A stretch of DNA of 32,363 nucleotides from Polyangiaceae bacterium (GTDB taxonomy: Bacteria; Myxococcota_A; Polyangia; Polyangiales; Polyangiaceae): assembly GCA_029941785.1 (NCBI GenBank), contig JAPYTK010000041.1:1-32363 (forward strand), given 5' to 3'. Within the stretch, counting starts at the first letter, position 1. Every line of letters begins with the position of its first letter. This document shows, piece after piece, positions 9,135-26,153 of the stretch. Both the position numbers and the translations under genes were made by a program. The notes under the pieces are model-generated. The model saw nothing but the letters and a program-made list of their open reading frames with translations. It did no database searches and was not told the origin of the DNA.

Positions 9135-12100
9135 TCAGCGAGCGCGGACGCGCTTCATCTCGCGGCGGAGGATCGCCCCGGTGTGGCTCTTCCGGCTCTT
9201 CATCACCTTCTCCGGCGTGCCCTGAGCAACGACCCGTCCCCCGCCAATGCCGCCCTCCGGACCGAGATCGACCACCCAGTCCGAGGCGAGAATGACGTCG
9301 GTGTTGTGCTCGATCACGATCACCGTGTTCCCCCGCTCCACGAACAAATTGAGCAGGCGCAGCAGGCGGCTCACGTCGTCGCGGTGCAGGCCGGTGGTCG
9401 GCTCGTCGAGCACGTAAAGCGTCTTGCCCTTCGCCCCGGTGCCAAACTCGCTCACCAGCTTGAGGCGCTGCGCCTCCCCTCCGCTGAGGGTGTTGCTCGC
9501 CTGACCGATCTTGAGGTAGCCAAGACCGAGATCGTCGAGCAAGGACAGCGGATGATGCACCTTGGGGATCGACGCGAACAGCTCGGTCGCTTCGGCGATC
9601 CCCATCTCGAGGATCTCCCCCGCGCTGCGGTCGGCCCACGTCACGTCGAGCGTCTCGGCCGTGAAACGGCGTCCATGACAGCGCTCGCAGGGCACGTGCA
9701 CGTCCGGCAAGAAGGCCATCTCCACCTTGAGCGATCCGTTGCCGCCGCAATGCGGGCAGCGCCCTTCCGCCACGTTGAACGAGAAACGTGAGGGAGTGTA
9801 GCCGCGCGCTCTCGCCGTCTGTGTTCCAGCCAGCAGCTTGCGGATGTGATCCCACACGCCAACATAGGTCGCCGGCACCGATCGGGGCGTACGACCGATC
9901 GGGCTCTGATCCACCTCGACCGCGCGTTCGAGGCGCCCCGCCCCGATGATCGAATCGAAGGTGCCCGCTGGATCCGTTACCAGGCCAAGCTCTTCCCGAA
10001 CCGCGCACAGCAGGACCTCGCGCACCAAGGTGCTCTTGCCCGAGCCGCTCACGCCCGTCACCGCCGTCAAACGACCCACGGGAAACTTCGCGTCGAGCTT
10101 CTTCAGGTTGTTGGCCCGCGCGCCGACGAGCTCGATCCACTCGATCCCCCGCGTCGGACGTCGCTCCGCCGGCACATCCGGTCCGCGCGCCAAGGCCTGA
10201 CCGGTGATCGACTTCTTGTTCTTCTTGAGCGCAGCCGGTGTGCCTCGGGCCACGATTCTCCCGCCACCGATCCCCCCTCCTGGCCCAACATCGATGACGT
10301 GATCGGCCGCCTCGATCATGTCCGCGTCGTGCTCGACCACGAGCACACTGTTGCCCTTTTCGACCAAGCGCTCGAGCGCGTCGATGAGCTGCCGCGTGTC
10401 TCGCGGATGCAGGCCGATGGTCGGCTCATCGAGCACGTAGAGCACCCCCGTCAGCCCGCTGCCGAGCTGCGCCGCGAGCCGCACGCGCTGCGTCTCCCCG
10501 CCGCTCAGGGTGCTGGCCGAGCGATCGAGGCCGAGATACCCCACGCCAACCTCTTCGAGAAAGGACAGCCGACGATCGAGTTCCTGAACGAGCGGCGCGC
10601 CGATCTTCTCGTCCCGCCCCTCGAAGGACAGGGCCGTGATCCGCGCCCGCGCCTGACTGACCGACAGCGAAAGATAGGCCGTGATCGGCTCGCCCTGCAC
10701 GAGCACCGAGCGCGCCTTCTCGCTGAGGCGCAAGCCGTCGCACGCGGTGCAGACGGTCGTGATCTCCTTGGCGTTCTTCCCGCGCCCTTGCACGCGAACG
10801 ATGTCCCCCTTGCCCTCACACACCGGACACGCCCCCTGCCGCGTGTTGAAGGAGAAGAGCCTCGGATCCAGATCCGGGCCGCGCGCGAACTGCACCACGT
10901 CCGCCTCGGCGACGTGCCCTGTCATCTCCCCACGGCGCCCCTTGATCCGAACCACGCCACCGGTCTGCGCCGCCGCGCGGCGAATCGCAGCGATGAGCTC
11001 GTCGCGCTCGCGCACCCTGAGCCGTTCGACGAGAAGATCGATGTCGTGCTCCTGGTAACGCTCGAGCGACAAGCCCTCCTTGATCTTGACCCGCTCGCCG
11101 TCGATGCGCGCCTCATCGAAACCCTCACGACGCGCCTTGTCCAGCAGGTCGCGGTGAAAACCCTTACGGCCCTGCACCACCGGCGCGTAGACGTACACGC
11201 GCGGCCTCGCCCCGTACTTGCGCCGTACCTGGGTGGCGAACTCCTCGGGCTGCACCCGACCCGACACCGCCCCCTGTTTCGCTCGCGGGACCTTTCCCAC
11301 GCGCGCGTAGAGCAAGCGCAGAAAGTGGCCGATCTCCGTGACCGTCGCGACGGTCGAGTTTCCTCCTCCGCGGGTCATGCGCTGCTCGAGTGAGACGGTC
11401 GGTGGCACCCCAATGACGCGATCGACCTCAGGGCGCGGAAGCTGGGGCATGTACTGCCTCGCGTAAGGCGACAGCGTCTCGAGGAATCGTCGCTGCCCTT
11501 CAGCGTACACGATGTCGAAGGCCAAGGTGCTCTTGCCGCTGCCGCTCGGCCCCGTCACGACCACGAGCTTCTCCTGCGGAATGTCGATGTCGATGTCGCG
11601 CAAGTTGTGCTCGCGCGCCCCGCTCACCTGAATGGAGCGCGCGTCCACCGCGTTCGCTTTCGCCAACGAGGCCGAACCCCGATTTTGCTTCATGCTCACG
11701 CGCTTCCCCGTCAGCGCCTGCCGAAGGAACGCCGCAGTCTGCGATCGCTTGCTCTGCCCAACCTTCTCCGGGATCCCCTGCGCGATGATCGTCCCGCCCG
11801 CGGCCCCCGCCCCGGGCCCCAAGTCGATCACATGGTCAGCAAAGGCCGCCACGGTCATGTCGTGCTCCACCACCACGACGGTGCCGCCCTTGTCGACGAT
11901 CCGATCCAGGGCCCCAAGCAGCGGCTTGACGTCCTGGGCGTGCAAGCCCGCCGTCGGCTCATCGAGCACGAACAACGACCCGACCTTCGTCTTGCCGAGC
12001 GCAGCGGCAAGCTTGAGTCGCTGCGCCTCGCCGCCGCTGAGCGTGTTGAGCGGCTGACCGAGCTTGAGATAACCCAGCCCCACCTCCACCAAAGGATGGG

Positions 12101-14504
12101 TCTTGCGGCATAGCGCGCCGTAGGTGTCGTAGCGCTCGAGCACCTCCTCCACGGTGATCTCGAGGACCTCGCTCACGTTCAATCCTTCGAAAAGGACGTC
12201 GAGAACCTCGCCACTAAAGCGCAACCCATTGCACGCCGCGCATGGGAAGGTCACGTCGGCCAAGAACTGCATCTCGACCGTCTCGAAGCCCTGCCCCTTG
12301 CAGACTTCGCAGCGACCGCCCGGCACATTGGTACTGAAAAAGCCAGGTCCGTATCCCCGATCCTTGGCCACCTCATCTTGCGAAAACCGGGCGCGGAAGG
12401 CGTCCCAAATCTTGAGATAGGTAGCGGGGTTCCCTCGCGAAGTTCGGCCGAGCGGCGACTGATCGACGTGGACCACATCGTGGATGGGGCCGTGACCACG
12501 AATCTTAGCGAAGGGCAGCGCCCCGACCGACGCCAAGCCGAGCTTCGCCTGGATCGCCGGCACGAAGGTCTCCAAGATGAGTGAACTCTTGCCTGAACCG
12601 CTCACGCCCGTCACGCACGTCATCACGCCGATGGGGATCGTGAGATCCACGTTTTTCAGGTTGTGACCGCTCGCGCCTTCGATCTCGATCGTGTGCGTGT
12701 AGGTGCGGCGCACCCGCCTCTCCGGCGCGCCACCGCGGAGCATCCGTCCCGTCGGCGTGTCCTTCTTTGCCAGTGCCGCAGGCGTCCCGGAGAAGGTGAT
12801 CGCGCCTCCGTGAGCCCCCGCTCCCGGTCCCAGCTCGATCACCCGATCCGCACACCGGATCATCTCCGCGTCGTGCTCTACCGCGAGCACCAGGTTTCCG
12901 CCGCGGCGCAAGCCTTGCACAACGCCGGTCAGCCGTTTCACGTCGACCGGGTGGAGCCCCACTGTTGGCTCGTCGAGCACGAACATCGCGCCGGTGAGCG
13001 CGCTGCCTAATGCGCTCGTCAACGCCACACGCTGCGTTTCCCCTCCGCTGAGGGTCCGCGACTGACGATCGAGCGTGAGGTAGTCGAGCCCCACGTCGGC
13101 CAAGGCTGCCAGGCGGTTGCCGCACTCCTGCAACAACAGCATGGTCGCCGGATCCCCGCGGTGCTCCTTCGCCAAGCCAGACACGAAGCCCTGCGCCTCA
13201 TGGATCGGCAGGCGAAAGAAGTCGGCAATTCGGTGTTCGCGGATCTGCCAATTGAGCGAGTCGGGCTTGAGCCGATCGCCACGACACGAAGGACACTCGA
13301 CGTACTTTCGGTAGCGGCTCAAGAACACCCGCACGTGCATCTTGTAGGCGCGGCTCTCCAGCCAATCGAACCAGGAACGCACCCCACCCCAGCCACGAGG
13401 CCAGCCGCGACCGTCCCCCTCCAGCAGCCACTGTTGATGTGCAGGGTCCAAGTCCTGAAGAGGCACGTCGAGCGGCACCCCGGCGATCGCCGCGTGCTTC
13501 TTGAGCATCTTGCGTTCCCACGAGGCGGACTTCCCCTTCCACGCGGCGATGGCGCCAGCGGCCAAGGTCTTGCTGTGATCAGGAATGATCTTGTCAAAAT
13601 CGGCGGTGATCACGCGACCGAAGCCACGGCACTCCTCGCACGCGCCCAGCGGATTGTTGAACGAGAACATGCCCGGCGTGGGATCCCGGAACACCAACGC
13701 GCAGGTCGGGCACGCCAACCCACTCGAGAACACCAAGTCATCGCCCTTCGCGGGGCTGACCCGCACCTGACCGCCCCCACGATCCATCGCCATCTCGAGC
13801 GCCTCGACGAAGCGCGAACGCGCCCCCGCGTTCACCACCGTTCGGTCCGCCACCACCCAAAGCGTCTCGGGCTCCGGTGGCGGCTTCTTCTTCTTGGTCT
13901 TGCGTTTCGACCGCGCCTTGACGACCTCGCTCGGTCGCACCTCGTCCAGATCACGCACCTCATCACCGATCCGCACCCTCCGGTATCCATCCGCCAAGAG
14001 CGTCTCGCGCACGACGAGAAAACTCTCCGGGTCATGGATCGCCACCGGGTAGAGAACCAGGCTCTTCTTTCCCGCTAGCTCCTCGAAAACTTCGTCCGCC
14101 GCCGTGGTCGGCGAGTAACGCCGCACGATGCGGGTGCAACCCGGGCAGTGAAGCTCGGCCACGCGAGCCCACAGGATCTTCGCGTAGTCCGCGATCTCGG
14201 TCATCGTCCCGACCGTCGATCGGCTGGTGCGCACCGGGCCTTGACGACCCACCGCGATCCCCGCCGGCACCGGCTCGAGCTCCTCCACCGGAGGCCGCGG
14301 CAAGCGCTCGAGGAAGTTGCGTGCGTAGGCGCTGAAACTCTCGACGTAGCGACGCTGGCCCTCCGCATAGAGAGTGCCAAAGGCCAAGGACGACTTGCCA
14401 GCCCCCGACGGCCCTACGATCGCCGTCAAGGTACCTGGCTCGAGATCGAGATCCAGGCTCTTCAGATTGTGGGTACGGGCACCTCGCAGGCGGGTGGGCT
14501 TCAT
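9135..14504 (-). CDS. uvrA: Double-length UvrA (two UvrA units in one chain), excinuclease ABC subunit A
   Basis: A 1789-residue protein, about twice the usual 940 residues. The start is set at ATG 14504 ([19 protein letters not shown], the classical UvrA N-terminus); an ATG at 14576 would add 24 unlike residues. It carries four ABC ATPase modules. Walker A motifs lie near residues 33, 635, 985 and 1490. Signatures LSGGETQR or LSGGEAQR lie near 481, 820, 1335 and 1675, each followed by a Walker B of the form VLDEPTxGLH. Each half therefore mimics a whole UvrA, so one chain could equal the normal dimer. Zinc pairs CPTC/CEEC and CEVC/CAAC are present in half 1 and CPVC/CTAC and CPHC/CERC in half 2. 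The first module's HCPxC is kept in half 1 (HCPGC) but lost in half 2 (VPRAKQG). UvrA recognises DNA lesions and loads UvrB in nucleotide excision repair. Chlamydial UvrA is similarly doubled. Confidence 0.95.
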
Positions 14505-14644
14505 CGGGCGCCCCAAGCTAGGGTCGTTTGGCGCGCGCGAGCAACCCGGATCCCCGCACCGCGCAATGGGTCGCACACAAAGCTCGAATCGAAGACGAAA
14601 GACGCCGACGCGAGAGCGAACTTGCGCTACCCAATGTTGGCGCC
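14505..14644. other. Divergent intergenic region between uvrA and pyrC
   Basis: This 140-bp gap separates the divergent uvrA and pyrC starts, so both promoters should lie here. I found no convincing -35/-10 pair, and I did not recognise a LexA-type palindrome. Confidence 0.5.
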
Positions 14645-16896: not shown

Positions 16897-17166
16897 CTAG
16901 CGGGTGTACGGTAGCAAGGCGATCGTGCGCGACCGCTTGATGGCCGTGGTCAGATTGCGTTGCTGCTTGGCGCTCAGACCAGAGATCCTGCGCGGCACAA
17001 TCTTGCCGCGATCGGTGATAAAGTACCGAAGTAATTGTGGATCTTTGTAGTCGAACTGATGGTTCGGATTCAAGCCGAGGCGCTGGGCGACACGCTTGGA
17101 ACCACGACCCATACCGCCGCGCTCGCGACCGCCGTCTTCCGTGGAGTTGTCTTTCATAATCGACAT
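16897..17166 (-). CDS. rpsR: 30S ribosomal protein S18, cysteine-free type, outside the usual operon
   Basis: About 89 residues. Starts at ATG 17166 and ATG 17157 are both possible ([13 protein letters not shown]). A longer upstream frame to 17586 is a shadow of the divergent gene's coding region. The S18 core is clear: [53 protein letters not shown]18 binds 16S rRNA on the platform with S6. Two oddities stand out. The zinc-type N-terminal cysteines (CxFC in many S18) are absent, leaving a Gly/Arg-rich tail ([14 protein letters not shown]). The gene also stands alone, without rpsF or rplI. A second S18 in the rpsF operon elsewhere would make this the zinc-independent paralogue; that is inference. 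Confidence 0.9.
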
Positions 17167-17176
17167 AGGGGCGTGG

Positions 17177-17205
17177 GATCTACAGCGTGCACCCTTTTTG
17201 CGCAA
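17177..17205 (-). promoter_or_regulatory. Candidate rpsR promoter
   Basis: On the minus strand, TTGCGC (17200-17205) and TAGATC (17177-17182) are separated by exactly 17 bp. The -10 ends 10 nt before ATG 17166 and 19 nt before ATG 17157. Both boxes are only half matches to consensus. Confidence 0.3.
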
Positions 17206-17321
17206 GCCTAATTTGACCACCGCCTCACTTGTTCGCCAGCATCCAGAGAACGTGCATGCTGAGCGGCGCCGATGCCATCTGACCCGTCTTCCAGTCGGCG
17301 ACCGCTGCGGGCGCCCTCGCC

Positions 17322-17350
17322 TTGACAGAGGGAGCCGCTTACCGCAGATC
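17322..17350 (+). promoter_or_regulatory. Candidate promoter of the sulfatase-superfamily gene
   Basis: A perfect TTGACA lies at 17322-17327, and after 17 bp comes a poor -10 (CAGATC, 17345-17350), six bases before the ATG at 17357. If it is used, the transcript would be nearly leaderless. The -35 is good, the -10 weak. Confidence 0.35.
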
Positions 17351-17356
17351 CGCGCC

Positions 17357-18715
17357 ATGCGAACCCGTGCCTGCTTCATCGGCCTCGTGGGCTGCCTGGC
17401 CTGCCTCGCCGGCCTCAGCTGCCAAGATCCTCCGCCGCCGCCGTCGAAAGCGGCGCCCAGCACGACGGCTTCAGCTCCCGCCCCGAGCGCAGCCACAAGC
17501 GCCGCGGCCGCACCGACCAAAAAGAAGGCGGCCAAGCCCTTCAACGTGCTCATGCTGATGGTCGATAGCTTGAGAGCCGACCGCATGCCTTGGGCGAACT
17601 ACGCGCACGACGTCGCTCCCATCATCGCCAAGTTCGCAAAGACGGCGGTCAACTACACCAAGTTTCATTCCGTCTCCTCGTTTACATCGCAGACCTTCGG
17701 CGGGCTGCTGGCGGCCCGCTACCCGAGCGAGATCCCGCGCAGCGGTTACTTCTTCAGCTCTTACCCCGACGAAGTGCTGATGTTCCCGGAGCTGCTGCAG
17801 AAGGCCGGTGTGCGGACCATGAGTGCACAGGCGCACTGGTACTTCCGAAAGGACAAGGGCCGCCTTCACCAGGGCTTTGACGAATGGGAGCTCACCCCGG
17901 GTCTCAAAAAGAGCAACACGACCGACGAAAACGTCACGAGCCCAAAGCTCCTGAAGATCGCGCTGCGCCATCTCAGCGACAAGAGGAACACGGCAGGACC
18001 TTTCTTTGCGCTCTATCACTTCCTCGACCCCCACGATCAATACGTCGGTCACGCGGGCGTGCCCAAAATGGGGCGGGGCGCCCGGGGCAACTACAACGGA
18101 GAGATCTACTTCACCGACGAACACATCGGAAAATTGCTCGACTTCGTCGACGCGCAACCCTGGGGCAAGAACACCGCCGTCATCATTACCGCCGATCATG
18201 GTGAGACCTTTGGCGAGCACGGAATGTACCGGCACGGCTTCGAGCTGTGGCAAGAGCTCATCCATGTGCCGCTCTTGATCCGGGTGCCTGGCTACGAGGC
18301 GAAGACCATCGACGTGCCCCGAGGCGGCATCGATTTGCCTCGCACCATCATGGCGCTGCTGGGCGTCGCGCCCGACGAGAGTTTCCAGGGTCACAGCCTA
18401 CTGCCCGAAATGCGGGGCGACGCGCCTCCTGCCCACCGACCCGTCATCTCCGATCTGTCGCGAACCAGCGACAACGACCGACGTCGCGCCATGATCTGGA
18501 AAAAGTACAAGATCATCGCGTACGGGGATGACGACTCGTTCAAGCTCTTCGACCTCGAGGCGGATCCCAACGAAAAACGGGACCTCGCGACCAAGGACAA
18601 GAAGCTCTTCAAAGAGATGCGCAAGCGCTACGAGGACACCAGCAAGACGATCAAAGACCGCTGCCCCAAGATGCGGAACAAGCTCCGTGGGAAGAAGCGC
18701 GGTCGCCCCTGTTGA
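17357..18715 (+). CDS. sulfatase/alkaline-phosphatase-superfamily lipoprotein
   Basis: A 452-residue protein. The start at 17357 gives a signal with lipobox LAGLSC (Cys22), then a Pro/Ala/Ser linker to about residue 55. The catalytic domain has [15 protein letters not shown] (metal ligand D70), the nucleophile region [17 protein letters not shown] (residues 107-123), [10 protein letters not shown], and [13 protein letters not shown] near 277-289 with the metal-binding DH pair. In sulfatases the nucleophile region reads C/S-x-P-x-R; here the aligned residues are T110-S-Q-T-F, so formylglycine cannot be formed at that place. Thr or Ser could act directly, as in phosphoethanolamine or lipoteichoic-acid-type transferases of the same superfamily. 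It is therefore possibly an envelope phospho- or sulfo-ester hydrolase/transferase. A basic C-terminus ([11 protein letters not shown]) is unusual. Confidence 0.8.
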
Positions 18716-19073: not shown

Positions 19074-22000
19074 ATGGTCCAGACACGCCCCATGACGCCG
19101 ACTTTGTCGCAAACCGGGAATTTCGCCCGCCTGCATGAAGGCGTCGATCCATTCCGGCATTACATCTTCTTGGGCGGCCTGCACGGTAGCGGCGCCCGGC
19201 AACTGCACGAGGTGCTGCTGCAGCATCCGCAACTCGCTGGGATGCGGGGCGGAGACGGCCAGTCCTTGCAAGGCCAGGCGCTACACAACGTGCGGCTCGG
19301 GGACGACTACCTGGGCGGAGCCGGCGCCTTCGCGCTCCATCCACGCGTTCGGCGACTCGCCTCCCGTCCCTTGTCCGTGGTTGAACGCGACGACATGTTG
19401 AGCGCTTGGGATCAGCGCTGGACGGACGACGTCGCTGCTGACACACGCTGGGTCGAGTTTTCGCCATCCAATCTTCTGCGGCCGCGCGTGCTGGCCGATG
19501 CCTTTCCGGGCTGCCGGCAGCTCGTCGTCGTGCGCCACCCCGTAGCGGATGCCTATGCGACCCGAGAAGAACTTTGCGAGCCGGACTTTCCCCTCTGCGA
19601 CCTGATCGAACATTGGCTGAGCGCTCACGAGAGCTACCAGCGCGACCACCAAGGTCTGAGGAACATCGTAACGGTGCACGCCGAGACCCTCGCCGATGAT
19701 CCTCAGTCGGTGCTCGACGGCATCGTCGATGACTGGGGCCTCGCCCCCCATGTTTTCGACACCCGTCCGCTGCGCGAACTCCACGAGAACCACTACGTGG
19801 ACAACTTGCACAATGAATCCGATCGGGTGCTCGACAGTTTGATCGAACTCGAAGATCACCTCCCCCCGCTCGGCTACACCTTGGAGGAGCCACGGCCCGT
19901 TGGCCCGATCCTCGATGTCATCCCGAAACCGCGTCATCCCCCCAGCATGCCGCCCCCCCTCGCGGCGAGCGCGAAGATGCCGCAAAGCCTCATCGTTCCA
20001 ACCTTCGGTACGCGCGGAGACATCGAGCCGTGCGTCGCCCTCGCCAAGGCCTTCAGCGAAGCGGGCTACCGTATCACCCTCTTGTCGACCGATGACCACC
20101 GCGCTTTCGTCGAGTCACGCGGCGTCGATTTCGTGAGCCTGGGTCGGGGCTCACGCTTTGAATTTCCCATCTGTCTCGGCCAACGCCCCGAACAGCAAGC
20201 CGACGCCTTCTTCGCTGCGATGCGACTGTTCTACGAGCGCTACGGGACGACCATCGTCGGCCTGTTGCAGGACGTCATCGAAGCGCGATCCATCGACTGT
20301 GCCCTCGTCGGATCCTGCGTGTTCTTCCGCGCCCTCTTGCGCGAACACTTTGGGCTTCCGCTCGTCAACCTGAACTTCTCTCCGCTGTACATCGATCCTG
20401 AAGCCGATCACGACGAGCTTTCGATCGCCCGCTATGCACAGAGCGTGGTCCGTCACGCCTACGCAGCCTCGAACTTCAAGATCCACCACATCCTCGATGA
20501 GGCCTACGCAGCTTGCGGCATCAACTTTCGCCACGCCGACGAAAAACTCCACGAGAGCATGGTCGGCATGAAAGAAACACTGACGCTGCGCGGTTTCAGT
20601 CAGCTCGTTCAGGGCAACGCCGTTCCCGGCTTCAGCGAGTACACGACGGGCTACTGGCGACTGAGTCCTCTTCGCAACGAAGGGCAAGCGCCCGAACTCG
20701 ACGCGGCGCTTCTCACCTGGCTCGAGAGCGGTCCGCCGCCGCTGTGCCTGAATTTCGGCAGCATGGAAATCTGGCGAGACGACGTCTGCCCTTGGTCCGA
20801 AGAGTTGATCGCCGCGATCCAGCGCTCCGGACATCGCTGTCTCGCGATCGGTGATTCCGTCCCCGATTCGGTGAGAACATGGGCCTATTGGGTTCCCGCG
20901 GCCCCGCACTCTCTCCTGTTTCCGCACTGCGCTGCCGTCATCCATCACGGCGGAGCGGGAACGACCGCCGCATGTCTCGCCGCCGCGACGCCCGCGATCA
21001 TCGTCCCCGTGCTCACATGGGCGGATCAACCGATCTGGGCAACCTGGGTACAAGCCGAGGGCGCCGGTGTGCACATTGTAGATCCTCAGCTGGGCTTCGA
21101 CGACGCGATCCGGACCATCCTCCAGCCCGAGTATCGCGAGCAGGCACGACGTGTGGCCGACCGTTTAGAAGAGGACGACGGGATGGCCACGGCGCTCGCT
21201 GTCTTCGAAGGCCATTTCGCCGCGCGTTCGGAGAGCCGAGCGATCGACCGAGAGACCTTTCGTTTCATCAACGATCTCCCGGTGAGCGACGCCCGCAAGA
21301 CCTGGCTATCCGCGGGGGTGCTCGTACGCAACGGCGAGAACGGGATGGCCGCGGTCGAAAATCGGGCGCAGCTTTTCGAGTCCATCGGGAAGGCGGCAAA
21401 GCGCTGGCCGGTCTTCAAGTCCGACTGGCCGCGCAAAGATCAGCCACTCGATCTCGCTGTCGAAGATCTCCCGCACGAAAGTTCATTGCAAGAGTGGTGG
21501 TACCTTCACACTCACCTGCAGTCGCCAGATGGCCGCAGCTTCAGCGTGTTCAGCGCCTTGTTCGAGCGGCTCTTCGGAGAAGAGCGACTGGCCTACGCCC
21601 ACAGCTCCGTGGTCGATGTCGAGTCCGATCGCCACTACAGTTACGCGGTCGGCGATCCTCGCATTCCCGGGGTGGTCGCGCCCCTACTCAGACGCCGCCC
21701 CTCCGACGACTACTTCAAACACGCGCTTGCCGAAATGTACGAGCGGGGAGCCTCACCAAGCCCCGACCACATCGCGCGCGAGAACTTCGTCATTCCACGG
21801 AACGTCATGGACTTCCGAGGCGAGGCTCTCCACATTCACAAGATCGCCGACGGCGAGTACGAGGTTGAGCAGGAGCAGAGGAACGGGTTTGGGTTTCGGC
21901 TCCGTTACCGCGCAACGAAAGTCCCCATCCTGAACGGCCGGCACGGTGTCGTCTTTGGCCCAAGCGCCGACGACAACATGTTTTATTACTCCTTCACCCG

Positions 22001-23603
22001 GATGGACGTCTCAGGCGAGCTTCACATGGGCAGCGAGACCATTCCGGTAAGCGGATCAGGTTGGTACGACCACGAGTTCGGGGGCGATACGGCCAAACGG
22101 CACACCAGCCACGGACTCGGAACCTACAGTTGGTCGTGGATGGGCCTGCAGCTCGATGACGGCACCGAGCTCTGTTACGCCACGCTCGTCGACGAAGAAC
22201 ACGACGAGGCCCTGCATGATCATGAAGTCCTCTTTATCGACGCCGACGGCGTGCGCACCTACCACAAGGCGACGATCGAGCCGCTCGACACATGGTCGAG
22301 CATGCGCAGCTACATCGAGTACGAGGTCGCGTGGCGTATGCGGATCGCCGACCTCGACATCGATTTGACCATCGAAGCCGCCAAGCGCGAACAGGAACTT
22401 CAGAGCGTCATCGCCGATCCTGCTTATTGGGAGGGGCGGGTCAATATTCTGGGACGAAAGGCGGGCGCGCTCGTTGGCGGCTTAGGATTCTGTGAGCAAT
22501 TCGGGCGCGGCGGAGACCGCTCCAACTACAAGCGCTTCCTCTCCGACGTGAGCCGCGAGGTGCGGGCCAGCGTCGAGCTCAACGCGCCCTTCGACATGTC
22601 CCAGGAACGGATGCGCGACCTGATAGCGGACCGCGAATTCGAAGGGCTCGTGGAAGGCGTGGACCGAGACACCTTCGTCGATACGATGGTCCGACCCGTT
22701 CGTGAGTTGATCGATCGTGGTGGTAAGGGTTGGCGGAGCATGAGCTTCATGTTGTGCGCCGACGCCGTGGGTGGCGATCCTTCCGCGCTGCGAAACTTCC
22801 TGGCCTTTCCCGAGTTCATCCACACCGGCAGCTTGATCATCGACGACATCCAAGACCAGTCGCAGACGCGCCGAGGCGGACCGGCTTGTCACTTGATCTA
22901 CGGAACCCCTACCGCGATCAACGCGGGCACAGCGGCCTACTTCATGGGCGAGCGCCTCCTTCACGGCGCCGATCTGAGCGACAGTGATTGGCTGCGAATC
23001 TACAAGCTTTACTTCACCTGCATGCGGGCCTCTCACACCGGACAGGGCATGGACATCCATGGCCTCCGGCATCTCGTCGCCGATAGTCTTGAGCGGGGCG
23101 ACACGACGACCCTGTGGTCGCAACTGATGGCGGTTCACCGATTGAAGAGCGGCGTGGCGGCGATGACCGCAGCCCGCATCGGCGTGATTCTCGGCGGCGG
23201 CTCCCCCCAGCAAGAGCAAGCTCTCGGCGATTACTTCCTCGCCCTGGGCACCGCCTTCCAGATCGTCGACGACGTCATCAACATCCGAGGGTTTGAGAGC
23301 GAACTGAAGGACGTGGCCGAAGACCTCCGCGAAGGGAAGATCACCGCGCCGGTCGTGCGCGCATTGTCCGCCCTCCCTCCGGCACAGGCCCAAGCACTGT
23401 GGGAAGCCCTGCAGGGCGATCCCGATGTCGCCACGGCCGTGCACCTCATCGAGTCTTGCGGCGCGATTGAGTGGTGCCACCAAGCCGCCCACGACATGAT
23501 CGACGGTGCGTGGGATGGTGTCGACGCGCTCATCTTGGACAGCCACGCCAAACTCGCGCTTCGTACCTTCGGCCGCTTCGTGGTCGATGTCAGGGATTAT
23601 TGA
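19074..23603 (+). CDS. four-domain fusion: sulfotransferase-like, glycosyltransferase, AttH/CrtC-like, isoprenyl diphosphate synthase
   Basis: A single 1509-residue chain without an internal stop (ATG 19092 is an alternative start). Residues 1-270 are sulfotransferase-like: PAPS loop YIFLGGLHGSGARQLHEVLL (30-49) and the strand-helix RQLVVVRHPVADAYA (149-163). Residues 303-710 are a GT1/GT28 glycosyltransferase of the sterol/macrolide UGT type: PTFGTRGDIEP at the start and HHGGAGTTAACLAAATPAII near 622-641 for nucleotide-sugar binding. Residues 790-1140 are an AttH/CrtC double-lipocalin domain: LQEWWYLHTHLQSPDG (about 805), GWYDHEFGG (996-1004), closing GGLGFCEQFG. Residues 1145-1509 are a trans-prenyl synthase: GGKGWRS (1216), first Asp motif DDIQD (1257-1261), second DDVIN (1399-1403), then DLREGKIT. 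Likely cytosolic or membrane-peripheral; it would make, modify and glycosylate an isoprenoid. The stop overlaps the next start (TGATG). Confidence 0.85.
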   Translation: MVQTRPMTPTLSQTGNFARLHEGVDPFRHYIFLGGLHGSGARQLHEVLLQHPQLAGMRGGDGQSLQGQALHNVRLGDDYLGGAGAFALHPRVRRLASRPLSVVERDDMLSAWDQRWTDDVAADTRWVEFSPSNLLRPRVLADAFPGCRQLVVVRHPVADAYATREELCEPDFPLCDLIEHWLSAHESYQRDHQGLRNIVTVHAETLADDPQSVLDGIVDDWGLAPHVFDTRPLRELHENHYVDNLHNESDRVLDSLIELEDHLPPLGYTLEEPRPVGPILDVIPKPRHPPSMPPPLAASAKMPQSLIVPTFGTRGDIEPCVALAKAFSEAGYRITLLSTDDHRAFVESRGVDFVSLGRGSRFEFPICLGQRPEQQADAFFAAMRLFYERYGTTIVGLLQDVIEARSIDCALVGSCVFFRALLREHFGLPLVNLNFSPLYIDPEADHDELSIARYAQSVVRHAYAASNFKIHHILDEAYAACGINFRHADEKLHESMVGMKETLTLRGFSQLVQGNAVPGFSEYTTGYWRLSPLRNEGQAPELDAALLTWLESGPPPLCLNFGSMEIWRDDVCPWSEELIAAIQRSGHRCLAIGDSVPDSVRTWAYWVPAAPHSLLFPHCAAVIHHGGAGTTAACLAAATPAIIVPVLTWADQPIWATWVQAEGAGVHIVDPQLGFDDAIRTILQPEYREQARRVADRLEEDDGMATALAVFEGHFAARSESRAIDRETFRFINDLPVSDARKTWLSAGVLVRNGENGMAAVENRAQLFESIGKAAKRWPVFKSDWPRKDQPLDLAVEDLPHESSLQEWWYLHTHLQSPDGRSFSVFSALFERLFGEERLAYAHSSVVDVESDRHYSYAVGDPRIPGVVAPLLRRRPSDDYFKHALAEMYERGASPSPDHIARENFVIPRNVMDFRGEALHIHKIADGEYEVEQEQRNGFGFRLRYRATKVPILNGRHGVVFGPSADDNMFYYSFTRMDVSGELHMGSETIPVSGSGWYDHEFGGDTAKRHTSHGLGTYSWSWMGLQLDDGTELCYATLVDEEHDEALHDHEVLFIDADGVRTYHKATIEPLDTWSSMRSYIEYEVAWRMRIADLDIDLTIEAAKREQELQSVIADPAYWEGRVNILGRKAGALVGGLGFCEQFGRGGDRSNYKRFLSDVSREVRASVELNAPFDMSQERMRDLIADREFEGLVEGVDRDTFVDTMVRPVRELIDRGGKGWRSMSFMLCADAVGGDPSALRNFLAFPEFIHTGSLIIDDIQDQSQTRRGGPACHLIYGTPTAINAGTAAYFMGERLLHGADLSDSDWLRIYKLYFTCMRASHTGQGMDIHGLRHLVADSLERGDTTTLWSQLMAVHRLKSGVAAMTAARIGVILGGGSPQQEQALGDYFLALGTAFQIVDDVINIRGFESELKDVAEDLREGKITAPVVRALSALPPAQAQALWEALQGDPDVATAVHLIESCGAIEWCHQAAHDMIDGAWDGVDALILDSHAKLALRTFGRFVVDVRDY

Positions 23604-25387
23604 TGGCCACCGAGATACCGCTCATCCTGTTCTTGGCGCTCTGTGTGGCGGAGGTCATTCGTAACCGGTGGCGGATATCTGCCCTCCCCGTGCTCGATCA
23701 CCACGACCGGCCCGCTCCAGAACGCCCCGAACTGCCGATCACGATCTGGCAAACCAGCGGCACCCCCCTTTCGCTCGCTACACGCAAGGCGGTCGGGCAA
23801 CGGATGGAACGCGAAGGGTGGGACGCCGTCGACTTGATCCCCGCTTCGATCCAAACCGAAGAGGCACTCGAGTTGCTCGCGGTCTTCACTCCGGAGTCCG
23901 CGCATGAGACGGTGTCCCGCGGGGTCAGCGCAGGCCGGGCCGTCGCGGTGCGCTCCTCGATCGCGGGCGCAGCGAAGCCCCACGACGCCGTGGACATGAT
24001 GGTCCGCTTCTCCGAGTTCGTTCGTCACGCCGAGCACCGGACCCAAAGCCTGATCGTGCCGCAGTTGGATGCCTTCGATGAGCGCGCAGGACAACGAAGA
24101 GAGATACTCCGCCAACGGATGGGCATCGTCACGACCGCGCACATCATCATCCAAGCGGTGCTGATCCTGTGGATGATCGCGCTACTGTTCACGTCCTCTT
24201 ACGGATGGCTCGGGATCCTCGGCTTTCATCTGCAGCCCATGATCATCTTCGGGGGCACGGCGCTCCGGCCCCGCGATCGCAACGCCCAGCTACTGCTCCG
24301 TCTTCCCCGCTACATCCAACGTTGGTGGCACTCCGTGCGGCACCGGGATGCACGAAGAAGCCAAATTGACGAACTCCGCCAGAACTACGAGACGCTCGCC
24401 GAAGAACAAGACGGGTTCTTCCTTCCGATCGCGAGCAGCTGCCCGATTTGCGCCGAGGAGAACCTCGCCCCGCACGTGTCGATGTCCGACATGATCATGT
24501 TCAAGCCGGGCCGCTTCAACCTCGACCGCTGCGGGGGCTGTGGTCATGTGTTTCAAAACCCCCAGCTCTCGCCGGCCGGCCTCTCGTATTACTATCGCGA
24601 TTGCTACGACGGCATCGGCGAATCGGACATCGAACAAGTCTTCGCGGCTGCCGACGATCTTTACGAGGCTCGGGCCGCCATGGTTCAAGGTCACCTCGAT
24701 CCCAAGCACTGGCTCGACGTGGGTACCGGCCACGGACATTTTTGCCAATCGGCAAGAAAGGTGTGGCCGCACACGCGATTCGAAGGACTCGACATGGGCT
24801 CAGGGATTGAGCGGGGCAAGGCTCGCGGCTGGCTTGACGCGACCCATAACGGCATGTTGCACGAGCACGCCGAAGCCCTGGCGGATCGTTTCGACGTCGT
24901 CAGCATGTTTCATTACCTCGAGCACACGCCCAACCCGCAAGAGCAAATCAACTTGGCAGCGGGCTTGTTGCGGCCCGGGGGCATGCTCATGATCGAAGTC
25001 CCGAATCCGGACAGCGTCTGGGGCAAACTGTTGGGCCGCTTCTGGCTGCCCTGGTTTCAACCGCAGCACCTGCACTTTCTCAGTGTCGATGCGCTCGGTC
25101 GAACCCTCGAGCGGGCCGGCATGCGCATTTCACGCGTCGACTACCTTACCGCTGCGGGTGACATGTTCTGCACCGCGTTCATGCTGATCCGCTACCTGGC
25201 ACCCGGCAAAGACCTTCCCTGGCGTGACGGGCGGCCCGGATCCCTGCGACGGATCCTCAGCGCGCTCGTGTGGGTCGTGGGCTCGCCGCTACTGCTCACG
25301 GCTGCGGGCGTCGATGCCCTCGTCGCGCAAACGAAGCCCGCCCGTCATCACTCCAATGCCTACCGTGTGCTCGCGCAGCGCACATGA
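23603..25387 (+). CDS. membrane-anchored SAM-dependent methyltransferase with zinc-ribbon-like motif
   Basis: A 594-residue protein whose ATG shares one base with the stop of the fusion gene. Order: a membrane segment at residues 4-20 (IPLILFLALCVAEVI); a soluble region of unknown family at 40-165; a hydrophobic pair at about 180-222 (IIIQAVLILWMIALLF, then LGILGFHLQPMIIFGG); a CPIC (280-283) and CGGCG (310-314) pair forming a zinc-ribbon like those preceding many natural-product and polysaccharide methyltransferases; a class I SAM domain with WLDVGTGHGHF (370-380), FHYLEHTPNP (about 436-445) and LLRPGGMLMIEVPNPDS; and a hydrophobic C-terminal helix near 548-575. It probably O- or C-methylates the lipid product of the fusion protein at the membrane. 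The substrate is inferred from context only. Confidence 0.85.
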   Translation: MATEIPLILFLALCVAEVIRNRWRISALPVLDHHDRPAPERPELPITIWQTSGTPLSLATRKAVGQRMEREGWDAVDLIPASIQTEEALELLAVFTPESAHETVSRGVSAGRAVAVRSSIAGAAKPHDAVDMMVRFSEFVRHAEHRTQSLIVPQLDAFDERAGQRREILRQRMGIVTTAHIIIQAVLILWMIALLFTSSYGWLGILGFHLQPMIIFGGTALRPRDRNAQLLLRLPRYIQRWWHSVRHRDARRSQIDELRQNYETLAEEQDGFFLPIASSCPICAEENLAPHVSMSDMIMFKPGRFNLDRCGGCGHVFQNPQLSPAGLSYYYRDCYDGIGESDIEQVFAAADDLYEARAAMVQGHLDPKHWLDVGTGHGHFCQSARKVWPHTRFEGLDMGSGIERGKARGWLDATHNGMLHEHAEALADRFDVVSMFHYLEHTPNPQEQINLAAGLLRPGGMLMIEVPNPDSVWGKLLGRFWLPWFQPQHLHFLSVDALGRTLERAGMRISRVDYLTAAGDMFCTAFMLIRYLAPGKDLPWRDGRPGSLRRILSALVWVVGSPLLLTAAGVDALVAQTKPARHHSNAYRVLAQRT

Positions 25388-25424: not shown

Positions 25425-26153
25425 ATGCAGACCGACAAACCAAGACACATCGCCATCATCATGGACGGCAACGGCCGCTGGGCCACAGCCCAAGGCAAGA
25501 CACGCGCGTTCGGACACGAACAGGGGGCGCGCGTCGCTGCCGAAGCGTTCCGTCTCGGTCAGGAACGGGGCATCGAACAGCTCACCCTCTACGCCTTCAG
25601 TTTCGCCAATTATCGGCGCCCGCAAGCAGAGGTCGATCACTTGATGAGCCTGTGCGGGCGATTCGCAGAAGACCATCGTGACGAGTTTGTCGAGCGGGGG
25701 ATCCGTTTGACGGTCATCGGCGAACTCGAGGACCTGCCGTCTGCGGCCCGTCGCGCCATCGAGAACACGATCGCAGCGACGGCGAAGGGAACAGCGATGA
25801 CGCTCTGTTTGGCCATCGGTTATGGCGCCCGAAACGACCTCGTCGGTGCGATTCGTGCACTGACGGCGCGCGCCTACGCCGGACTCCTGTTGCCCGAAGA
25901 AGTCGACGAAACGACCATCCGCTCTTTCATGACCGCAGGCTCCCTCCGAGATCCCGATCTCGTGATCCGAACCGGGGGCGAGCGACGCCTCAGCGATTTT
26001 CTGCTCTTCGAATCCGCGTACGCCGAGCTCTTTTTCTCCGATCACATGTGGCCGGACTTCAACGCCGAGCTGCTCGACCAAGCGATCTCCGCCTATGCGC
26101 GCCGCGACCGTCGTTACGGGCAGATCGGCGAACAGCTGGCCCACAGCGCCTGA
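25425..26153 (+). CDS. uppS: cis-prenyltransferase, UppS family (probably a pathway paralogue)
   Basis: A 242-residue protein, usual family length. Family marks are HIAIIMDGNGRWA (residues 8-20, catalytic Asp), GHEQGA, LYAFSFANYRRPQAEV (usual form FSxENWxRPxxEV), and RTGGERRLSDFLLFESAYAELFFSDHMWPDF for IPP binding. The Glu of SxEN is Ala and the Trp is Tyr, so the allylic pocket differs from the housekeeping enzyme. Cis-prenyltransferases add IPP in Z-configuration to an allylic diphosphate, as in undecaprenyl diphosphate synthesis. This gene sits 37 bp after the methyltransferase, without the cdsA/dxr/rseP neighbours typical of housekeeping uppS. It may therefore elongate the all-trans primer made by the fusion's synthase domain. 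That role is inference; bulk undecaprenyl synthesis is the alternative. Confidence 0.85.
   Translation: MQTDKPRHIAIIMDGNGRWATAQGKTRAFGHEQGARVAAEAFRLGQERGIEQLTLYAFSFANYRRPQAEVDHLMSLCGRFAEDHRDEFVERGIRLTVIGELEDLPSAARRAIENTIAATAKGTAMTLCLAIGYGARNDLVGAIRALTARAYAGLLLPEEVDETTIRSFMTAGSLRDPDLVIRTGGERRLSDFLLFESAYAELFFSDHMWPDFNAELLDQAISAYARRDRRYGQIGEQLAHSA

Follow-up and report, generated by a model that had tools for sequence, protein, structure and literature searches.

We analysed a stretch of DNA of 32,363 bases (the window), which is an entire contig of a 6.03-Mb draft genome in 415 contigs. A single open reading frame on its forward strand, with an ATG start, a TGA stop and no internal stops, encodes a protein of 1509 amino acids that contains, from N- to C-terminus: a Sulfotransfer_3 domain (ST), a GT1-type glycosyltransferase (GT), a CrtC/Lipocalin_9 region (CrtC) and a polyprenyl_synt domain (PPS). 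The relevant features of the locus, with the evidence for the fusion and its domains between brackets, are the following:

19074..23603, forward strand: ST-GT-CrtC-PPS fusion protein of 1509 amino acids (open reading frame, Pfam, full-length homologues)
19146..19928, forward strand: sulfotransferase-fold domain (Sulfotransfer_3) with a degenerate PAPS 5'-loop (Pfam, alignment with stand-alone sulfotransferases)
19974..21248, forward strand: GT1/GT28-type glycosyltransferase domain (Pfam, PDB sequence matches, motifs)
21408..22553, forward strand: CrtC/AttH two-lipocalin hydratase-like domain, with Asp999 in GWYDHEFGG (Pfam, AF2 model, Foldseek, motifs)
22596..23600, forward strand: trans-polyprenyl diphosphate synthase domain (Pfam, motifs, solved-structure matches)
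23603..25387, forward strand: protein with a membrane segment, a zinc ribbon and Methyltransf_23, whose ATG overlaps the TGA of the fusion by one base
25425..26153, forward strand: cis-prenyltransferase (undecaprenyl diphosphate synthase family), close behind the fusion

Judged from this arrangement, the methyltransferase gene is likely translationally coupled to the fusion gene, and the cis-prenyltransferase gene is a probable operon partner. The same genome holds a second undecaprenyl diphosphate synthase copy elsewhere (G000:C278), and the copy in the window may therefore be pathway-specific. On the reverse strand, the window further encodes a UvrA-like protein of 1813 amino acids (9135-14576) that is unusually long for UvrA and contains a number of ABC stretches plus two for UvrA interaction, and a frame of 229 amino acids (16900-17586) with a Ribosomal protein S18 domain at its C-terminal end.

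The original prediction that four unrelated enzyme families follow one another in a single frame is borne out by Pfam and strengthened by independent homologues, one archaeal and one cyanobacterial, and the four-domain architecture is certainly real. Neither frameshift nor stop interrupts the frame between the domains, and all four functions exceed the curated Pfam gathering scores (the E-values given below are whole-protein values). NCBIfam models matched the fusion only below their cut-offs and hence yielded no named equivalog. The same order of domains was recovered from the haloarchaeon G587 and from plasmids of Tolypothrix sp. PCC 7601 and PCC 7712. The G587 relative, the full-length match among 392 Halobacteria genomes, counts 1494 amino acids (43% identity over residues 30-1509) and lies in one open frame of 1499 codons on an 845-kb contig (L200:7723-12219). 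The Tolypothrix protein (WP_096622351.1), found by a plasmid search, is again 1509 amino acids long and is 36% (tblastn) or 38% (alignment) identical to the window protein. In both, all four functions score above the Pfam cut-offs and the alignment with the window protein runs end to end. A fourth fused protein, from the haloarchaeon J07HX64, has the order GT-CrtC-PPS, with a scaffold gap directly in front of the GT.

The per-domain identities of the window protein to its G587 and Tolypothrix counterparts, respectively, are 34 and 34% for ST, 43 and 35% for GT, 42 and 34% for CrtC and 56 and 53% for PPS, the last being the best-conserved domain. The PPS domain (polyprenyl_synt, residues 1205-1450, E 2.2e-48) has the fold, the FARM, the second Asp-rich motif and the catalytic Lys/Arg of the trans-polyprenyl diphosphate synthases (PF00348): DDIQD (FARM), DDVIN (SARM), GGKGWR, HRLKS and EGKIT are all present, with both later lysines kept. 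Among the relatives DDxxD occurs in 69/69, DDxx(N/D) in all 66 for which the alignment covers the site, and GGKxWR is near-universal. Small residues (Gly1252 and Ser1253) lie four to five places before DDIQD and the FARM has no insertion, which suggests a product of C20 or longer.

The CrtC domain was recognized by two Pfam profiles (CrtC, E 1e-19, best stretch 929-1003; Lipocalin_9, residues 1018-1141, E 1.6e-20) and by its fold. An AF2 model of residues 741-1509 (CrtC-PPS), made with 29 relatives, reached a pLDDT of 88.3 and a pTM of 0.87 and shows the double-lipocalin fold of the CrtC/AttH/kievitone hydratase superfamily; Foldseek matched it to AttH (2ich, E 3.4e-20) and kievitone hydratase (7a0t, E 3.5e-16), and also to GGPP and octaprenyl diphosphate synthases. 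Asp999 is found in 67 of the 69 relatives and corresponds, by motif rather than by direct alignment of a CrtC sequence, to Asp268 of RgCrtC (R. gelatinosus), which is essential and was proposed as general acid/proton donor (PMC4717167). The His239-x-Trp241 pair that CrtC activity needs (PMC4717167) reads MFYY (Met969/Tyr971) in the window, again compared by motif and not by direct alignment of a CrtC sequence. Two of the four fused proteins deviate further: G587 has Asn for Asp999 and ERWN for EWWY, and Tolypothrix has DRKF for DHEF and EFWS for EWWY. These replacements suggest that CrtC activity was lost or changed in G587, where the PPS and GT motifs are intact, and in both organisms the domain may be impaired or modified, so that a hydration or cyclisation step may not be common to all fusions.

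The GT domain combines a Glyco_transf_28 N-domain (residues 308-359, E 1.6e-7) with EryCIII-like_C (residues 576-696, E 2.2e-14), and its N-terminal motif GTRGDIEP and C-terminal nucleotide-binding motif HHGGAGTT are intact. The nearest solved structures by sequence are sterol 3-beta-glucosyltransferase and GtfB.

The C-terminal half of the fusion belongs to a family of two-domain CrtC-PPS proteins of about 750-850 amino acids that spans several phyla and two archaeal groups (Myxococcota, Bacteroidota, cyanobacteria (Cyanosarcina), Thermoplasmata and others); at E ≤ 1e-40, matches were found in 44 of 379 Myxococcota genomes, the window's own fusion included. The genomic surroundings of this family contain various recurring functions: GT1-type genes, which follow the two-domain genes L105, L092 and L087 on the same strand at distances of 4, 26 and 889 bp and are, the fused ones apart, the only GT matches in the 70 loci scanned (the GT adjoining L092 is distant from the fused GT, 28% over 110 aa); zinc-ribbon methyltransferases, which as a group adjoin several two-domain relatives and of which one is related to that of the window (26% identity, E 4e-15); and MacB/DevA/LolD-like ABC ATPases, near ten loci. 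In many Myxococcota (L103, L073, L099, L104, L084 and others), the gene directly next to the two-domain gene encodes a conserved protein of membrane type, about 600 amino acids long; in the single member scanned, that of L085, no Pfam domain was found.

The Tolypothrix fusion (L202) has devB to one side and devC-devA to the other, and these genes satisfy the curated models TIGR02971, TIGR01185 and TIGR02982; DevBCA exports heterocyst glycolipids, and some of its paralogues are linked to drug resistance (PMC8277102). A transposase, Tns-type genes and cysC also lie near the fusion on the PCC 7601 plasmid, and the locus is possibly a mobile glycolipid cluster. The neighbours of the G587 fusion, read by eye, look haloarchaeal (glutamate dehydrogenase, a bacterio-opsin-activator-type regulator, an R2-like oxidase, an acyl-CoA synthetase), and no obvious lipid-glycoside genes were seen in that neighbourhood.

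From motifs, fold and context we infer the product, its chain length and a cooperation of the domains, and we give roughly even chances to the fusion being a multifunctional terpenoid-glycoside synthase that performs polyprenyl synthesis, tail hydration or cyclisation, and glycosylation, with the ST domain as a scaffold. This reading is based on the fold match to AttH and kievitone hydratase, the likeness of the GT to sterol glucosyltransferase, the downstream GT genes and the DevBCA flanks. The C-terminal PPS, with its complete motifs, would condense IPP units to an all-trans polyprenyl diphosphate. Asp999 of the CrtC domain would then protonate the double bond of the tail isoprene, and the tertiary cation could be quenched in one of two ways: water would give a tertiary alcohol, the outcome known from carotenoid 1,2-hydratase and kievitone hydratase, whereas attack by an adjacent double bond would give cyclisation. 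Finally, the GT would move a sugar from an NDP-sugar onto the alcohol. Tailoring and export of the glycolipid would probably be carried out by the coupled methyltransferase and the cis-prenyltransferase in the window and by the DevBCA-type exporter in Tolypothrix. Three of the activities that the original prediction had joined, namely chain synthesis, hydration or cyclisation, and sugar addition, are backed as predictions by the intact motifs, the fold and the gene neighbourhoods. The substrate channelling that it also suggested does not follow from the fusion by itself.

For the second step we favour tail hydration, because kievitone hydratase and CrtC both add water to non-activated double bonds (PMC6013536). 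CrtC enzymes need long substrates, geranylgeraniol (C20) being partly converted and shorter ones not (PMC6013536). The CrtC domain could instead be a cyclase, in which protonation would set off the cyclisation of the polyprenyl chain, leaving a cyclic terpenoid alcohol for the GT to glycosylate. An explicit parallel has been drawn between the chemistry of CrtC and that of squalene-hopene cyclase, an Asp providing the attacking proton (PMC4717167), and among the neighbours examined the widespread CrtC-PPS family shows no context that is obviously specific to carotenoids. However, the nearest characterised fold, kievitone hydratase, hydrates instead of cyclising, and the structure searches turned up no known cyclase of the CrtC/AttH fold, which leaves a cyclase rather unlikely, if still worth serious consideration.

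We consider it improbable that the fusion modifies carotenoids made elsewhere, as a hydratase plus carotenoid glucosyltransferase in which the PPS is precursor supply or a dimerisation platform. The CrtC family takes its name from carotenoid hydration, and carotenoid glucosides exist in myxobacteria. Against this, carotenoid genes are absent among the window ORFs scanned and are not among the most frequent neighbour families of the CrtC-PPS loci, where the pairing recurs without them, and the PPS, as the most conserved domain with every catalytic motif kept, does not look like a passive platform.

The original prediction had also allowed for sulfation, and this part found no support. By its profile match (Sulfotransfer_3, residues 31-223, E 2.6e-7, 31.6 bits against a cut-off of 27), which is also passed in the other two full-length fusions, the ST domain is a true member of its family, but a degenerate one. 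The 5'-phosphosulfate loop of sulfotransferases, (K/R)SGT, serves PAPS use. The window reads GLHGSGA where stand-alone sulfotransferases read GLHRSGT, and across the three full-length fusions RSGT has become GSGA, GSGA and NSGA, with Arg replaced by Gly or Asn and Thr by Ala. Five stand-alone relatives keep (H/Y)RSGT, EKSP and a PE(N/Q)EG-type stretch, whereas the three fusions have HGSGA or HNSGA and are without the Lys of EKSP and the PENEG-type motif. With the loop lost, we infer that PAPS use was lost as well; sulfation by the fusion is unlikely on these motifs, and the domain probably serves as a scaffold or substrate-binding part. An AF2 model of the ST-GT half, made from one sequence, had a pLDDT of 39 and was left out of the interpretation. 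A sulfated glycolipid as end product, with activity in each of the four domains, would agree with the profile match, with the retained RHP stretch of the 3'-phosphate region and with cysC (adenylyl-sulfate kinase, PAPS synthesis) at about 11 kb from the Tolypothrix fusion, but IS701 and Tns-type genes stand between the two, and the motifs missing from the fusions are those that the stand-alone relatives keep, which makes such a product improbable.

That the fusion is an assembly or sequencing artefact uniting separate genes is practically out of the question, even for a draft of 415 contigs, since the end-to-end homologues on the haloarchaeal contig and on complete cyanobacterial plasmids rule it out, GC3 is homogeneous over all four domains and the flanking genes resemble those of same-genus, same-family and same-order relatives. 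A contaminant contig was likewise ruled out: the best DNA matches of the flanks are genomes of the same genus, family and order and the GC content is uniform, from which the contig appears to be an ordinary piece of its genome.

In a tree of 70 CrtC-PPS proteins, made by a quick method and with some long branches, the four fusions group together in a single clade (SH-aLRT 100). A single fused clade inside the two-domain family suggests one origin and horizontal spread, probably by one fusion event followed by movement between bacteria and archaea. A first scan of the genome collection with the fusion protein as single query gave no matches. No further four-domain copies were found in 184 genomes of the same order, in 379 Myxococcota genomes or in 390 + 38 cyanobacterial genomes, and the partly overlapping Halobacteria samples (392 + 293) yielded only G587 and, as GT-CrtC-PPS, J07HX64; the four-domain fusion is therefore rare.

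The fusion of CrtC/AttH to a prenyl synthase and the CrtC-PPS family were both looked for in the open-access literature, and nothing relevant was found. The parts are all of known kinds; their ST-GT-CrtC-PPS combination appears to be undescribed there, as does the CrtC-PPS family. The claim that no enzyme with this order had been described thus holds for the literature searched, with the restriction that the Tolypothrix protein was already deposited, with no annotation beyond 'polyprenyl synthetase family protein'. Taking all evidence together, we hold it slightly better than an even bet that the fusion is a so far undescribed terpenoid-glycolipid megaenzyme, one polypeptide for building a polyprenyl chain, hydrating or cyclising it and attaching a sugar, that it arose from a widespread, likewise undescribed CrtC-PPS family, that horizontal transfer distributed it among Myxococcota, cyanobacterial plasmids and haloarchaea, and that it carries a repurposed ST without PAPS loop. 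CrtC-PPS would then point to a new, widespread class of terpenoid-forming enzymes annotated only as 'polyprenyl synthetase', for whose pathway of chain synthesis, tail hydration or cyclisation, and glycosylation the four-domain version would be the 'Rosetta stone', and myxobacteria, halophilic archaea and the laboratory cyanobacterium Tolypothrix PCC 7601 would be predicted to make glycosylated terpenoid lipids of a new family.

Various known systems resemble the fusion in part. The two-domain CrtC-PPS proteins share its CrtC-PPS order, mostly at 36-43% identity across its C-terminal half, but are polypeptides without GT or sulfotransferase. Carotenoid 1,2-hydratase CrtC, kievitone hydratase and AttH share with the window domain the two-lipocalin fold, the catalytic-type Asp in GWYDHEFG and the predicted chemistry of prenyl-tail hydration; they are single-function enzymes, however, whereas the window domain is fused to a prenyl synthase and does not conserve His239 of CrtC. 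Sterol 3-beta-glucosyltransferase UGT51 and GtfA and GtfB share the GTRGD..P N-motif and the HHGG.GTT C-motif with the GT, which in the window is embedded in a terpenoid fusion. The DevBCA system for heterocyst glycolipid export has dev genes as in the surroundings of the Tolypothrix fusion, but the genes listed for the 32-36 kb of that locus include none of the PKS type for heterocyst glycolipids, and the lipid of the fusion would be an isoprenoid. Bifunctional fusions of a prenyltransferase and a terpene cyclase are a known design, and solved copalyl diphosphate synthase fusions occur among the structure matches of the PPS domain. Like these, the window fusion joins a prenyl diphosphate synthase to a carbocation enzyme, but its partner is a lipocalin-type CrtC and it adds a glycosyltransferase and a pseudo-sulfotransferase.
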